Part shown: positions 15,608 through 22,629 of the stretch, piece after piece
Position numbering within the stretch: position 1 is the stretch's first letter
Layout of the letters: every line of letters starts with the position of its first letter
Source of the DNA: Deltaproteobacteria bacterium
GTDB taxonomy: Bacteria > Desulfobacterota > BSN033 > UBA1163
Direction: 5' to 3'
Assembly: GCA_020059605.1 (NCBI GenBank)
Contig: JAGVBT010000144.1
Coordinates: 1-33,678, forward strand
DNA: 33,678 nucleotides
The notes under the pieces: generated by a model
The model's input: the letters and a program-made list of their open reading frames with translations, nothing else
What the model was told of the DNA's origin: nothing
Databases searched by the model: none
Program-made: the position numbers and the translations under genes

Positions 15608-17809
15608 CTACTTCTTTTTAGATAACTGTTTCGTAGCCTCATCAAGCCGGCTATTTGCAAATTCTATTAACTCCTCCAAATATTCCAGGTTGTGAACACC
15701 ATTGCCTTTCTTTGCCAGATTGTAATTGAACTCCGCCTCTCCGAAGGGTTTTCGATAGACAAAGGTATGGCCTCCCCGGGATTCGATTCTTCTGATCTCT
15801 TCCCTCACCTTTTCGACCTTAGGATCCAACTTTGTTAACAATCCCTCTGACGTTGCTTTCCAACGGGTGAGCATCTCTCCGTAACTCTGGTCATGACACT
15901 CGATACACCGTTTCTTGATATCATCAAAGGAATCCCTCTTCTTGGCAGGCACCCCGCGATGGCAATCGATGCATTCAACCACGTCTAACTTATTACTCGG
16001 CCTCTCTTTAACGCCAATGCCGCCTTTCCCATGGACCAACCGTTTCACCGAGACATGGCAGTCTTCACATTTGACCTTCTTGATCTGTTTTCCGTGATGA
16101 CAGTCTTTGCAATTCTTATGAAAGGTCTTCCCGTGATTGTCACGGGGGGTATGGCAATCCATGCATTTCAACTTTTTCCCCAGCACATGGGTCTGATGAG
16201 AGAATTTGATGTCGTTGAAAGGAACGGCCTGTTTTTCGATCCCGATATGGCAGAGGGTCGTACAGGTCATCTCGGTCTTAAACTCCTTTGACTTATAATT
16301 CCTGTCGAGGACGGTTAGGGCTTGCTCGGTCTTATTGTTCGCCGCGTTAAGGAGTTTGATCGCGTATTCAATGTTGTGTGCGCCCTTTCCGAGGTGGACA
16401 AAGTTGTAATTGTGGCGCGCCTCGTTCAGGAAGTTCTGGGCCTTTTTAAGTTCGGAGGCTCTCGTCCGGTCCCCTTCGGCTTCGTGGAGAATCTCCTGGA
16501 TATTGGAGATTCGTTGATTCGTATCCCTCTTCGCTCTGGAGAGAAGAAGCTGCCATTGTTTCAAGGTCTCATCAAACCCCTCCCCATGGCAACTCACGCA
16601 GGCCTCCCCCATGGCCCTTTCAACATATTTCGTGGTGTAAAGCGCGGCGCGGCTTTCCTCTCCCTTGCGATGGCATGCGATACAGTCCACATTGGTCGTA
16701 AACATGAGGCTGGGAGAATCCGGAACCCCGATCCCCCCCACTCCCCGGTAAAAATCCCTCGGCGCCAGGTGCATCTCCTTGCTGTGGCACTTATCGCAGA
16801 CCGTGGGAGAATGAACCATCGTAAGGATGGGACCGATCTCATGCCGGATGTGGGTGTGGCAATCCGCACATTCGATCTTGCTGTCGGTGACATGTTTTTT
16901 ATGCATGAATTGAGCGGTGTATTTGGTTGCAAGGATATCCGGTTCGTTATGGCATTGGAGGCATTTCCCCTCCGGGACATGGCCATCCCCCTGAACCACG
17001 TTGACATGACATCTCTCGCATTCCACTCCTCTCGCAATATACTTTTGATGGTTGAAATTCCAGCCTTTGACCTTGATATCTCCCTTTGGCTCCACATGGC
17101 AGGAAACACAGCTTCCCACGGCGCATGAAATGCACTCTTCCTCTCCTTTCGGACCGGCCTGATAGTAGTGACAGATGAAGCAGTTGGTCTCATGAACGGT
17201 GAGATGGGCTCCCTGAACGAGCTGGGCATGGCAGGAGGTGCAGCGAAGCTTCATCCCCCTTCTCAGTTCACCCAAGTGCTGCCCGTGGGAAAAGGCCACG
17301 TTCTTGTAGACCATATCTCCCTGAAGATCCTCTATCTTATGGCACCCCTTCTGGAGGCAACTTGCATCGCTAATTTCCGCATGAGGCTTGCTGGGCCTCT
17401 TTCCGGATAGGAAGTAGGCGAGCGATACCTGGCCGTCCACCCATTTCCCCTTAAGATGGTTGATAAGGCCGGGCTCGTAATGGCATTTGGTGCAGGCGAC
17501 GTGGCGATGGCTGGATGTGCTCCACGATTCCATATAAACATTCATCTGGTGACACAGGCCGCAGAAGGTGGAGCTCTCCGTAAATCTGAGAAGGGCCAGC
17601 GAAAGGACGGTAAAAACGAGAATGCATAAAACCAGGGAGGTTTTGATCGCTCTCTTGTGCTCGGTCGTTCCCTTTTTAAAGTCCAAAAAAACTTGAACCC
17701 AAAATCCATTGATTAAATGATAAAGGTCTTTTAGATTCTCCCTGCCGAAGAAATCGTTTAACTTTTTAAGCATTGAATAAGGGAACGATTTAATTTTAAT
17801 CCATTTCAT
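15608..17809 (-). CDS. NapC/NirT-anchored multiheme cytochrome c (about 18 hemes)
   Basis: This 733-residue protein has a basic cytoplasmic N-terminus, one membrane helix at about 55-75, then a periplasmic part starting with CGLCH (83-87) in the NapC/NirT style. I count 16 CxxCH motifs plus CLQKGCH (CX4CH, 151-157) and CTTLCH (CX3CH, 516-521), so up to 18 covalent hemes. Two helical segments are related: residues 358-491 and 596-720 share a GGIGV start, CxxCHR, a CxxCH followed by a W-containing helix, and a NYN...GxHNxEY motif. It probably takes electrons from the quinone pool or an inner-membrane partner to periplasmic acceptors; the exact partner is unknown. The ATG at 17809 is preceded by GGGGGGG at 6 nt; an in-frame TTG at 17815 has no usable spacing. 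Confidence 0.88.
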   Translation of the reverse strand: MKWIKIKSFPYSMLKKLNDFFGRENLKDLYHLINGFWVQVFLDFKKGTTEHKRAIKTSLVLCILVFTVLSLALLRFTESSTFCGLCHQMNVYMESWSTSSHRHVACTKCHYEPGLINHLKGKWVDGQVSLAYFLSGKRPSKPHAEISDASCLQKGCHKIEDLQGDMVYKNVAFSHGQHLGELRRGMKLRCTSCHAQLVQGAHLTVHETNCFICHYYQAGPKGEEECISCAVGSCVSCHVEPKGDIKVKGWNFNHQKYIARGVECERCHVNVVQGDGHVPEGKCLQCHNEPDILATKYTAQFMHKKHVTDSKIECADCHTHIRHEIGPILTMVHSPTVCDKCHSKEMHLAPRDFYRGVGGIGVPDSPSLMFTTNVDCIACHRKGEESRAALYTTKYVERAMGEACVSCHGEGFDETLKQWQLLLSRAKRDTNQRISNIQEILHEAEGDRTRASELKKAQNFLNEARHNYNFVHLGKGAHNIEYAIKLLNAANNKTEQALTVLDRNYKSKEFKTEMTCTTLCHIGIEKQAVPFNDIKFSHQTHVLGKKLKCMDCHTPRDNHGKTFHKNCKDCHHGKQIKKVKCEDCHVSVKRLVHGKGGIGVKERPSNKLDVVECIDCHRGVPAKKRDSFDDIKKRCIECHDQSYGEMLTRWKATSEGLLTKLDPKVEKVREEIRRIESRGGHTFVYRKPFGEAEFNYNLAKKGNGVHNLEYLEELIEFANSRLDEATKQLSKKK

Positions 17810-17868
17810 CGTCAACCCCCCCCATGGAAATGATACATCATGTTATAATGTTGTTGACAATTTTTCAA

Positions 17869-18310: not shown

Positions 18311-18961
18311 ATGAGCCGATCTGTTGGAATTGACCGGAAAGAGATCCTTGTCCCATTCACCTGCATCCTTCTCTTGTTTTTAACCGGAGGTTCGGATTTG
18401 TCCTTTTCAAAAGAGGAAGGGCATCCCATGGAGAAGAAGGAGGAGAAGATCCGGGCTTTTCGGGAAAAGAGGGACCGTTTCTTCAAAGAGGACTCGTCTT
18501 CTCCCTTAAAAGAGAGCGCCAAAAAAAAATTCAAAGGCCTCCTCTATTATCCGATCGACCTGAAATGTATGGTGACCGGAGGGATTGAAAAATATCCCAC
18601 CGATCCGAAATCCATTTATGTGAACCTTCCGACGAACAAAGAGAGGGAGAAGAAATATGTGAAATACGGCCGTTTCAAGTTTAAACTGGACAACAAGGAA
18701 TACGTCCTTCACATTTACAGACCCCTCGGAGGGGGAGACCTTTTCCTGCCCTTTAAAGACAAGACCTCAGAGACGGAGACCTATCCGGAAGGGCGTTATC
18801 TCCCTATCGAATTCATGCCCGGCGAAAAGGTGCTCATCGATTTCAACCGGGCGAGCAACCCTTTCTGCGAATACAATGAAAAATACCTCTGCCCCTTTGC
18901 ACCCAGAGAGAACTGGCTTGGCATCGAGATCAGGGCAGGGGAGAAAAGGTTTCGAAATTGA
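18311..18961 (+). CDS. DUF1684-domain exported protein
   Basis: This 216-residue protein has a hydrophobic N-terminal segment (about 14-27) acting as signal peptide or anchor, then a charged helix. The DUF1684 domain follows, with FKGLLYYPIDL, YGRFKFKLDNKEYVLHIYR, LFLPFKDKT, ETYPEGRYLPIEF and DFNRASNPFCEYNEKYLCPFAPRENWL. The family has no proven function. The conserved two-Cys segment (Cys at NPFCEYN and YLCPF) is present. It starts at the base after the upstream stop and ends 15 bp before the TTG of the UshA-like selenoprotein. Confidence 0.85.
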   Translation: MSRSVGIDRKEILVPFTCILLLFLTGGSDLSFSKEEGHPMEKKEEKIRAFREKRDRFFKEDSSSPLKESAKKKFKGLLYYPIDLKCMVTGGIEKYPTDPKSIYVNLPTNKEREKKYVKYGRFKFKLDNKEYVLHIYRPLGGGDLFLPFKDKTSETETYPEGRYLPIEFMPGEKVLIDFNRASNPFCEYNEKYLCPFAPRENWLGIEIRAGEKRFRN

Positions 18962-18976
18962 GGATCGGAGGACTTG

Positions 18977-20560
18977 TTGGAATTAAAAACAAAGGTCATT
19001 CTTGGGTGCACCATTTTTTTTCTGAATCTGATCTGGATTTCAACTCTCCACCCTTCTTCCGGGACGCGGTTCAGCGTTGTCTATACCAATGATGTGATGG
19101 GTGAAGTTGAGCCCTGCGGGTGATTTCGAAAGCCCCTTGGCGGTGTCGCCAAGAGATCGACGCTGCTCTCCCAAATCCGAAAGGAAAGCGCCCCGATTCT
19201 TCTCCTCGATACCGGGAATCTCTTCTTTCGAAAGCCTCTCCAGACAGAAACCAGGCGGAAGGATGCCCTCCTACGGATTGCTCTCCTCCTCCAGTCCTAT
19301 GATGAGATGGGATACGATGCGGTCAATGTAGGGGAGAAGGATCTGATGATGGGAAGTCGATTTCTCACCGATTTGACACAAAAGGCAAAATTCCAATTGG
19401 TTTCGGCCAATCTGGTGGAAAAGAAGAATCATCAACCATTTTTTAAACCCTATGTGATCAAAGAGATCTCAGGGCTAAAGGTTGGGATCTTCGGGCTCCT
19501 CGATGATCGGTTCCGCCCGGCCCTCCAGGAGAAGGATCCTGGTTTGACCATTCTCGATCCCTTCATGACATCGAAGTCCGTCACCCAGAGTATAAGAAAA
19601 AATTGCGACCTGATCGTCCTCCTTTCTCAGCTGGGCGAATCGAAAGACAGGAAGCTGGCTCGTGAAAATCCGCAGATCGACCTCATCCTCGGAGGAGGGG
19701 GAGAAGCTCTGAGGGCGGTAATGGAGAGGGTAAATGAAACCCTCATTTATCGGCTGGAGCCCAGAGGGGGGTATCTGGGCCGGGTGGACTATTCCATCCC
19801 CGACATTAAAAGGCCGATTCAATTTTTGATTTCGAGTGAACGGGATGAACTGGAGAAACGATTGGGACGGCTGATCACCCGCACGATTCAGATCAAAGCC
19901 GAAATAGCAAAAGCGGGCAGACCGGACGAGATGAAAGCCAAGGAGCTTAAATTTTTGGAATCGAAACAGAAGGAAATCGAAAAAAACCTCATGGCCTTCC
20001 AGGATAAAAACTTCTACAAACACATTGCCATCCCTGTCCAGCTCTCTGTGGAAGATGATCCTAAGATCATGAAGGGAATAGATCAATACCGCACTGAGTC
20101 GGCGAAATTATATCAGCCCAGAGCGCCGTCCTTGCCTGAGAAGGGGTTGTCGGAGAAGGAGATGCTTGCCCGGATTCCCAAAGACAGTCCTTTTGTCGGG
20201 GCGATCAGCTGTAAAAAATGCCATGAGGCGAACTACCGGAACTGGCTGAAAACCAAACACGCCAAAGCCTCCGAAACCATCGTGGCTTCTCCCAGATATG
20301 CGCAGGAGGAGTGCCTCATCTGCCATTCCACGGGTTATGGAAAAATAGGGGAGTATGCCACGGTTGATGAAATACCGTTCTATCTGAAAGGTGTCCAGTG
20401 CGAAACCTGTCATGGGTCCGGAAGAGGACATCCGGAAAAAGGAAGGATGCAAAGTAAAGTGACTCTCGGCGTCTGCAGAAATTGCCACACCAAAGACCAG
20501 AGCCCCACCTTTAACTACGTGGCCTATCTTGAAAAGATCGGCTGCAACCTCAAGAAATAA
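18977..20560 (+). CDS. UshA-like/tetraheme cytochrome c with in-frame TGA (probable selenoprotein)
   Basis: This reads as one 527-residue protein if the TGA at 19121-19123 (residue 49) is decoded. Residues 1-28 are a signal peptide. Residues 32-49 read FSVVYTNDVMGEVEPCG then TGA, and the same frame continues without a stop through FRKPLGGVAKRSTLL, LLLDTGNLFF (75-84) and NVGEKDL. This is a 5'-nucleotidase/metallophosphoesterase-like domain in which several metal ligands are replaced. As I recall, relatives have EPCGC at this point, so the TGA stands where a cysteine is usual. A charged coiled coil spans about 290-345. The C-terminus is a cytochrome c554-like domain with CKKCH (412-416), CLICH (446-450), CETCH (475-479) and CRNCH (500-504). 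A SECIS-like hairpin follows the TGA. The start is TTG at 18977 with CGGAGG 5 nt upstream. Alternative: a nonsense mutation. But the downstream ORF alone would be a c-type cytochrome lacking an export signal. Confidence 0.8.
19121..19153 (+). promoter_or_regulatory. UGA selenocysteine codon and SECIS-like hairpin
   Basis: After the TGA come 12 nt, then a perfect 7-bp stem CTTGGCG/CGCCAAG (19136-19142 with 19147-19153) closed by the 4-nt loop GTGT. The loop begins 20 nt after the TGA. The published bacterial SECIS model asks for an apical loop about 16-37 nt downstream with a G in its first positions; both hold. The stem lies wholly in coding sequence, as bacterial SECIS elements do. Confidence 0.78.
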
Positions 20561-20566
20561 GGGTTC

Positions 20567-20651
20567 AAGGATTCAAGGGTTCCAGGGGTCAAGGATAAGA
20601 CTATTTAAGAATTTCTCTTGAACCCTTGAACACTTGCCCCCTTGAATCCTT
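20567..20651. terminator. Hairpin-forming repeat between convergent cytochrome genes
   Basis: AAGGATTCAAGGG (20567-20579) pairs exactly with CCCTTGAATCCTT (20639-20651); a second pairing, GGGTTCAA with TTGAACCC, is possible inside. It begins 6 bp after the UshA-like stop codon and its right arm covers the CbcL-like stop codon, so it could end transcription from both sides. The first 28 bp (20560-20587) recur exactly at 29788-29815. Confidence 0.5.
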
Positions 20652-22629
20652 AACCTAAAAATTCCCAGGCAATCAGGAAGATGCAGAACAGCCCTAAAGC
20701 CAGCATGGCGAATCCCACAACATTGGAGAAAAGATCTGTCCATGCGCTCGGATATTTTGATCGATAAGTCTCAAGTTTTTTCTGTGCCAACAGCCTCTTA
20801 TACTGTTCCGGCCGCTCTTCAACCAGTTCGTATTTGGGCAGCCTACCTGTAAAGATTACCGGATCGAAAGGAAACTTCGACGGTCGGAAATGTGTATTAA
20901 AGAAATGAACCGTGAAGATAAAGCCGGAAGCGAGCAGGGCTTCGTCCGAATGAACGATATGGGCAATATTGAGCGCCCAGCCCGGCAGGAAGATACAGAA
21001 GGTTTCCGGAAACCAGAGCATCAGGCCGGAGAACCCGATCGCAAACATTCCCCAGAAGACAGCTAGGAAGTCAAATTTTTCCCAGTAAGTCCAACGGTCA
21101 AACTGTGGTTTAGGCCCTTGATTAAAGAACCACCGGATCATTCCCACAATGTCCTGAACATCCTTCCAGCGCGGGCAGAGGGAATCCGGACCGAAAAGCT
21201 TCTGGAGCGGATTGGGATTCCCAGGCAGTTTTTTATAAAACAGGAAGTAGAAGATATAGGCGAGAGCCGCTCCGAAATAGAGAAAGGTAATGGCTGCCGC
21301 GATCCGGTGGATCAGCCCCGCCATTTCGGCTCCGCCTAAGAAGGCCATTAGGCCTCTGGCCCACGGAGCATGAGAGAATTTCAACGGCAGTCCGGTGAGG
21401 ACAAGGGCGATGAAGGTCACCATCATAGTAAAATGAAGGATGATATCAAAGGTGCTGAAGCGGCGATACATCAGGCCTGCCTCTTCGGGTTTGACATGCT
21501 GGTGGAAGAAAATTCCCTGAGCTCTCAATTCCCGTTTCTCCCAGAAATCCCTTCGCCACCAGAGAATCGTATGGAGCCAGAACATGCCGAACACTGAAAC
21601 CAATAATGCGGTCATAATGATAAACGTCCCGTAGAAAACAGGATGCCTTTCCGGATCATTATGGGTGGCATGGGCAATCCACATCACGAAATTCGAATTT
21701 GCTCCGGGGTGGCATTTTCCGCAGGTCTCGACAAGACGAGCGTCGGAGATAAGAGATTTTGGGTCATCCCTGGGAAGAATGCTATGAAATCCATGGCAGT
21801 CGGCACAACCGGCCACCAACTTAGGATATCCTAAATGTTCCACTTTTCCATGGTAACTTTCGTAATAAGTCTCAGTAGCGATGAGGAAAACTTTATTCCG
21901 TTCCATCATCTCCTTGTCCCCGTGGCACTTTTGACAGGCCTCCGTATGAAACTCTTTCCGGAATTGGACCACCTTGGGCTCATCCCCCTTCAAGATGGGA
22001 ACCTTATGGAGACCGTGACAATCGCTGCAATCGGGAGAATCGGGGTTTCCTGCGAGAACGGATTTGCCATGGACGCTCTCCAGGTAGCCGTCATCAGAAT
22101 GGCAGGTCGTGCATTTCTCGATCACTCTCGTCTTGTCCCCTTTCCAGGGGGTCATCTCGTGAATATCTTTATGGCAGTCTTTGCATTGAATGTCGTTGAT
22201 GAAATGGGCGCTTGCGTAATGTTCCGCCCCTTCCTTCTTATGACAGCGATGGCAGGTCACGGGCTCCACATGAATTCTTGCGCCCTTTGCCTTCATATGG
22301 GAGGTCACATCCGTAATGTCCCAGTGACAGCCATTGCAGGAGTTTGCCCCGTGAACGGACTGGGCAAATTTTCTTTCGTTAATTTTATCGCTATGGCATT
22401 TAAGGCACTCGGAATTGTCGATGCACTCATAACAGTATTCCCTGCCCCTTACGATGAACGTTTCCCCCTTCTTTGCAGATTCGGGAGGTTTGGTCACTGC
22501 CGCGGGCTTGGATTCCTCTTTTTTCTCCGGAGTGGGTGTAGCTGCCCACATAATGCTCAGGCTCAAAAAGAGCGCCAAGGAAAAGGCGACAAGAAGAATA
22601 ATAATTGGTCTTCTAAATTTTGTTTTCAT
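20650..22629 (-). CDS. CbcL-like fusion: nonaheme cytochrome c plus cytochrome b
   Basis: This 659-residue protein has an N-terminal signal/anchor (8-29). A periplasmic domain follows with nine CxxCH motifs, at 75, 98, 126, 149, 173, 201, 232, 275 and 303. Next is a membrane domain with about six helices from 332 to 656, of the HydC/FdnI cytochrome b type. Candidate b-heme histidines include H399, H441, H560 and H575. Nine c-hemes joined to a HydC/FdnI-like domain is the architecture of Geobacter CbcL, an inner-membrane quinol oxidase used with low-potential extracellular acceptors. I infer quinol:periplasmic cytochrome electron transfer here. The start ATG at 22629 follows GGGGGG. A CYEC pair at 66-69 lacks the heme histidine. 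Confidence 0.85.
   Translation of the reverse strand: MKTKFRRPIIILLVAFSLALFLSLSIMWAATPTPEKKEESKPAAVTKPPESAKKGETFIVRGREYCYECIDNSECLKCHSDKINERKFAQSVHGANSCNGCHWDITDVTSHMKAKGARIHVEPVTCHRCHKKEGAEHYASAHFINDIQCKDCHKDIHEMTPWKGDKTRVIEKCTTCHSDDGYLESVHGKSVLAGNPDSPDCSDCHGLHKVPILKGDEPKVVQFRKEFHTEACQKCHGDKEMMERNKVFLIATETYYESYHGKVEHLGYPKLVAGCADCHGFHSILPRDDPKSLISDARLVETCGKCHPGANSNFVMWIAHATHNDPERHPVFYGTFIIMTALLVSVFGMFWLHTILWWRRDFWEKRELRAQGIFFHQHVKPEEAGLMYRRFSTFDIILHFTMMVTFIALVLTGLPLKFSHAPWARGLMAFLGGAEMAGLIHRIAAAITFLYFGAALAYIFYFLFYKKLPGNPNPLQKLFGPDSLCPRWKDVQDIVGMIRWFFNQGPKPQFDRWTYWEKFDFLAVFWGMFAIGFSGLMLWFPETFCIFLPGWALNIAHIVHSDEALLASGFIFTVHFFNTHFRPSKFPFDPVIFTGRLPKYELVEERPEQYKRLLAQKKLETYRSKYPSAWTDLFSNVVGFAMLALGLFCIFLIAWEFLG

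Follow-up and report, generated by a model that had tools for sequence, protein, structure and literature searches.

The gene at positions 18,977 to 20,560 (forward strand) of the window, i.e. the whole stretch of 33,678 nucleotides which was analysed, codes for a protein of 527 amino acids, very probably with selenocysteine at codon 49. It is a new member of an already named selenoprotein family without an explained function. Probably, the protein is a periplasmic redox enzyme with a C-G-U site, in which the histidines for hydrolysis are gone and which is wired by its own tetraheme domain to quinol-linked cytochromes. This reading was built on computed observations: the reading frame and its conservation, a family-wide SECIS signal, the presence of selA, selB and selD, missing metal-site histidines, the fold, heme motifs and gene linkage.

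Re-reading of the sequence placed the start codon, TTG, at 18,977, the terminal TAA at 20,558–20,560 and a GGAGG, the likely Shine-Dalgarno sequence, ahead of the start at 18,967–18,971 (forward strand). The only interruption before the TAA is an in-frame TGA at 19,121–19,123 (forward strand), read as selenocysteine in C47-G48-U49. Its context is T-N-D-V-M-G-E-V-E-P-C-G-(TGA). A signal-peptide-like N-terminus is followed by a phosphoesterase-type domain devoid of the metal-site histidines and by a C-terminal tetraheme cytochrome domain. The four CxxCH heme c sites, Cytochrome_C554-like, cover 20,210–20,488 (forward strand) with starts at 20,210, 20,312, 20,399 and 20,474; the Pfam match to Cytochrome_C554 spans residues 411–480. 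Thus, the initial annotation was correct in claiming a frame broken by this TGA alone, within C-G-(TGA), and four CxxCH motifs downstream of it. The 'TND motif' which it had seen before the TGA is present as well and can be refined: T-N-D-V-M (19,085–19,099, forward strand) aligns with the metal motif D-x-H but carries Met at the His position.

The protein translated across the TGA matched the NCBIfam profile NF041198, 'UshA-like (seleno)protein', with 484.3 bits (cut-off 275). The family name given in the initial annotation was right. The match extends over profile positions 4–518 of 519, heme region included, and the P-C-G-[UC] motif in the name of the model is found as C47-G48-TGA. Nothing basic sets the protein apart from this family. 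The profile of NF049981, 'UshA-like (seleno)protein family 2', scored 70.2 bits, below its cut-off of 140, and the SoxB profile 69.1 bits, below its cut-off of 550. UshA-like CxU selenoproteins (COG0737) have been listed since 2008 (PMC2398784) and are again listed in two later reviews (PMC9312934; PMC13188914), the last of which names NF041198. In the available portions of these three sources no function is given, and metal-site residues or cytochrome neighbours are not discussed. The corresponding portion of PMC2398784 places UshA-like proteins among families lacking a conserved Cys-based redox motif; its own table gives CxU.

The TGA is conserved beyond what chance would give. It is present in 10 of 11 near orthologues (11 of 12 with the window gene); the twelfth, L060, has CGA. 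In a wider alignment of 65 rows, 43 sequences, the window included, carry TGA at the motif and 10 carry Cys. The 12 rows classed as 'other' are 2z1a, seven ordinary paralogues, L060, L093 and the fragments L064 and L071; L093 (SGCC) was counted as the eleventh Cys sequence in the hairpin test and in the tree. The initial annotation had named relatives with cysteine at this position, and almost all relatives of this type indeed have Sec or Cys in the column; L060 has Arg. A survey of 395 genomes of the phylum found UshA matches at E <= 1e-60 in 81. Among the 99 matches listed, 88 had one TGA in frame, accompanied in one case by a TAG, one had two and 10 had none, where TGA was counted anywhere in the frame and not specifically at the motif. 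In two close pairs dN was low compared with dS on both sides of the TGA (L023/L024, dN/dS 0.02/0.22 before and 0.07/0.59 after; L061/L063, 0.06/0.22 before and 0.05/0.19 after); in other pairs dS was large or not estimable. Judged from these substitutions, the codons on either side of the TGA are under constraint in both pairs.

Selenocysteine machinery, for which the initial annotation had proposed a genome check, was found in large part. Genome profile searches identified selB (371.7 bits), selA (622.4 bits) and selD (391.7 bits), all above cut-off. The selD gene carries a TGA of its own, at KAG-U, and a second UshA-like TGA gene (PCPV-U) is located on contig C91. A tRNA-Sec was not found in the 93.7% complete assembly by RF01852, ARAGORN, pattern and BLAST searches. 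The best RF01852 match (47 bits) was rejected; ARAGORN calls it a tRNA-Ser(TGA). A tRNA-Sec of 65–83 bits is present in 14 of 20 relatives, including eight of nine genomes of the same genus. In both relatives examined it comes after selA-rluD-pgeF-yggU, the genes other than selA being named by eye. This block is kept in the window genome, G000, and the assembly breaks just after yggU. Most likely, an assembly gap is the reason for the missing tRNA-Sec. Two relatives, L083 and L084, combine an UshA-like CPx-U gene, a B12-radical-SAM-like gene, selA, rluD-like, pgeF-like and yggU-like genes and tRNA-Sec in one block, again with all but selA and the tRNA named by eye. At L080 (1496–1558) a fluoride riboswitch (RF01734, 59.2 bits) was noted where an ORF of G000:C91 begins.

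A general reading of TGA as an amino acid was discarded: the DUF1684 gene just upstream ends at a TGA (18,959–18,961), and its relatives at L026, L028 and L113 are 212–215 amino acids long as compared to 216. The data support the interpretation of the TGA at codon 49 as selenocysteine, which is very probably correct, and we infer that selenium actually is inserted at this position.

The SECIS-like hairpin starts 12 nt after the TGA (spacer TTTCGAAAGCCC). It occupies 19,136–19,153 (forward strand) and consists of a 7-bp stem, CTTGGCG paired with CGCCAAG, and the loop GTGT (19,143–19,146), exactly as initially described. It is the minimum-energy fold of 33- and 45-nt segments; in a 48-nt segment another hairpin was formed. 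Compared to shuffled sequences the hairpin had a z of -1.16, with 29 of 200 shuffles equally good, and 43 of 300 synonymous recodings were equally good. Taken alone, the hairpin of the window gene is weak, i.e. only moderately unusual, and an Rfam search of 19,050–19,300 returned no match up to E 5. Most Sec relatives are able to form a hairpin around G-G-x-A codons. Several of them have the loop GGTCT, which we take to resemble the loop of E. coli fdhF. Each of 43 Sec and 11 Cys genes was compared with 300 synonymous recodings of itself. The mean z was -1.47 in the Sec set, with 31 genes below -1, and +0.79 in the Cys set, with none below -1 (Mann-Whitney p 7e-7, a value which overstates independence because the sequences are related; nine of the 11 Cys rows are one clade in the tree). 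The evidence for a SECIS signal, which the initial annotation had seen in the single hairpin, lies at the level of the family, where the hairpin beats synonymous recodings in the Sec set only.

That the TGA is a true stop, a sequencing error or the mark of a decayed allele, with a separate or dead protein downstream, agrees with the missing tRNA-Sec, with the weak hairpin of the window gene and with a program-made ORF list that opens the downstream frame at ATG 19,307, yet it is most improbable and was rejected because of the conservation of the TGA; against it are also the low dN on both sides, the family-wide SECIS signal and the lack of a signal peptide, as needed for heme c attachment, in a product begun downstream.

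What, then, is the protein around the selenocysteine? An AlphaFold2 model was computed from 40 sequences (mean pLDDT 83.4, pTM 0.76); the heme part is less certain (pLDDT 47–82 per ten-residue block). The best Foldseek matches were 5'-nucleotidases, i.e. E. coli UshA, CD73 and 2z1a, with a best E of 1.3e-21 and TM scores mostly of 0.46–0.49 of the query. The predicted fold is of the UshA/5'-nucleotidase type. In this respect the label 'UshA-like' and the phosphoesterase-like domain of the initial annotation were upheld. The metal site, however, differs: all five aligned metal or catalytic histidines are replaced in the window protein, by Met, Lys, Gln, Gly and Glu. In detail, the His of D-x-H is Met, Asn and His of GNHE are Glu and Lys, the His of SHLG is Gln, and the two His of GGHSH are Gly and Glu. 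Both site aspartates are retained.

Throughout the family the D-x-H histidine is absent (kept in 0/43 Sec and 0/10 Cys rows), as is the GNHE histidine (0/53 Sec plus Cys rows), and the last histidine of GGHSH is kept in one of 53. The SHLG histidine is kept in 18/43 Sec and 9/10 Cys rows and the first GGHSH histidine in 18/43 and 1/10, respectively. In the seven ordinary paralogues plus 2z1a the GNHE and the last GGHSH histidines were present in 8/8 and the D-x-H histidine in 7/8, with one alignment gap; the LDAGD column was left out because of poor alignment in the ordinary paralogues. In the tree, which is unrooted and has weak deep forks, the ordinary paralogues are one well-supported group (100/99), drawn among the Sec rows beside L062. 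With this placement and without a root, the tree alone cannot tell a loss of the metal site from a gain; from the presence of the site in the wider UshA/SoxB superfamily it probably was lost. The Sec motif sits in the loop right after the first metal motif and may occupy the old metal pocket. Compared with the UshA, 5'-nucleotidase and SoxB metallophosphoesterases the window protein thus shares the fold, whereas the metal and catalytic histidines are replaced and C-G-U and hemes are added.

Could the protein still be a two-metal phosphoesterase or nucleotidase, or a SoxB-like hydrolase, with selenocysteine in a structural role? The fold and the remote similarity to UshA, SoxB and CD73, the two aspartates and the two site histidines persisting in part of the family would be compatible with this. 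However, the histidines of D-x-H, GNHE, SHLG and GGHSH are all replaced in the window protein. This disfavours an active phosphoesterase, which we consider quite unlikely.

The redox reading is in line with the genes nearby. The stop codon of the DUF1684 protein gene (18,311–18,961, forward strand) is located 15 nt ahead of TTG 18,977; therefore both genes probably are on one transcript. A DUF1684 gene adjoins the selenoprotein gene in eight of nine other loci of the same family (in L027 on the opposite strand), and its product possibly is a partner of the selenoprotein. Two cytochrome genes on the reverse strand are recurrent neighbours. One (15,608–17,815) codes for a 16-heme cytochrome with an NrfH-like N-terminal region. 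The other (20,650–22,629) codes for a fusion of a 9-heme cytochrome c, with nine CxxCH motifs, and a cytochrome b561-like membrane domain; the protein has a Ni_hydr_CYTB match of 30.2 bits (cut-off 30.1). Its layout is like that of CbcL from Geobacter, a quinone oxidoreductase with nine c hemes and a b-type membrane domain according to the available part of PMC9129911; the two are likened by layout alone.

The 9-heme/cytochrome b gene accompanies the selenoprotein gene in eight of nine other same-family loci and the 16-heme gene in five of nine, within the available flank. The ninth locus, L060/L085, whose sequence starts at the end of a contig, has none of DUF1684, 9-heme and 16-heme genes as neighbours. 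In loci outside this closer set, both cytochromes occur at L106 and L108, the 16-heme gene at L109 and the 9-heme gene at L063 and L113; ORF clustering detected neither at L104, L110, L111, L112, L114, L121 and L030, and the contigs of L105 and L107 are short. At L108 (G033:C97, 6038–8564) two UshA-like TGA genes stand in tandem between the 9-heme/b and the 16-heme genes, one with PCA-U and no CxxCH, the other with PCG-U and four.

In the 395 genomes the 16-heme protein was found in 53 and UshA in 81 at E <= 1e-60, and both in 32 (odds ratio 9.1). In 17 of these 32 the two genes are less than 8 kb apart, in five families; G033 and G042, with weaker UshA matches, add two, so that the 16-heme linkage is seen in seven families of the phylum. 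The 9-heme protein is present in 96 of the 395 genomes. Among the best 60 nine-heme rows an UshA gene lies within 10 kb in 21; of these, G005 has a 60-aa fragment and G033 a match weaker than 1e-60. A 16-heme gene is near in 23 rows. In 15 of these UshA is near, including the G005 fragment, and in eight no UshA was near at the threshold of E 1e-60. Hence, the two cytochromes apparently also occur as a pair where UshA is missing, and the UshA gene looks like an add-on to the pair. The G005 fragment (C11:24002–24160), about 60 amino acids similar to the C-terminal end of the UshA gene product, is located between the two cytochrome genes and probably is a decayed copy.

We also searched the neighbours for a clue to the substrate. 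Apart from cytochromes and DUF1684, a few loci have molybdopterin- or formate-dehydrogenase-like ORFs nearby (named by eye); the neighbours are too varied to name one substrate.

The initial annotation knew of no characterised combination of a thiol/selenol site with cytochrome electron transfer. The pairing of selenocysteine with multiple hemes does have precedents, because the heme region is already covered by the NF041198 profile and because ExtKL of Geobacter is a predicted selenocysteine-containing multiheme cytochrome, clustered with a b-type cytochrome (PMC5877670, available part). ExtKL resembles the window protein in combining Sec with a multiheme cytochrome c and in its clustering with a b-type cytochrome. 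The two differ in that an UshA-like domain is reported for the window protein only, none being mentioned for ExtKL in that part of PMC5877670, and in that NF040886, the ExtKL profile according to the available part of PMC13188914, is absent among the matches listed for the window protein at E <= 0.01.

Selenocysteine and hemes do not always go together. In many UshA-like proteins with Sec, CxxCH is absent. At L060/L085 (G010:C168) P-S-G-R replaces P-C-G-U and the four CxxCH are retained; ORFs beside it are ferredoxin-like, NrfD-like and molybdopterin-type (names by eye from ORF starts). From L060, with hemes and without C or U, and from the heme-less Sec paralogues it follows that the two redox parts are separable in evolution, and this weighs somewhat against a strict interdependence.

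Close Cys/Sec pairs can bind metals. Instead of converting a small substrate, the C-G-U site might act on a metal or metalloid or be a redox chaperone for the maturation of cytochromes. The repeated linkage to very heme-rich neighbours would fit. Yet, heme-less Sec paralogues occur elsewhere too, e.g. near selA, where no cytochrome was recognised by eye, and the protein's own tetraheme domain suggests electron transfer. We regard such a role as unlikely, although less so than that of a hydrolase.

For the preferred reading, a periplasmic redox enzyme, the following arrangement is probable. Selenocysteine would be inserted at the UGA of codon 49, and the adjacent downstream hairpin would be the signal for SelB. 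This would place the C-G-U thiol/selenol pair in the loop by the first metal motif of a phosphoesterase-type fold. The C-terminal tetraheme domain may exchange electrons with this pair and would be linked to the quinone pool via the 9-heme/cytochrome b and the NrfH-like 16-heme neighbours. The former phosphoester pocket might bind a small sulfur, selenium or disulfide-type substrate of the periplasm. Most likely the protein would operate as a reductase, less likely as an oxidase. The electron flow from heme to selenol, its direction and the substrate are inferred.

As far as the available portions of the family literature go, the replacement of the metal-site histidines and the recurrent 16-heme linkage are additions to it. 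The label 'UshA-like' may point to the wrong chemistry. Taken with the absent metal-site histidines, the four-heme tail and the quinol-type cytochromes that recur nearby, it becomes a testable redox hypothesis. Tentatively, and with less confidence than we have in a redox role as such, one may envisage a phosphoesterase fold rebuilt as a new class of Sec-dependent terminal oxidoreductase, with C-G-U in place of metals and a tetraheme wire to a module of CbcL-like 9-heme/b and NrfH-like 16-heme cytochromes, which might respire or detoxify a periplasmic substrate in uncultured Thermodesulfobacteriota.
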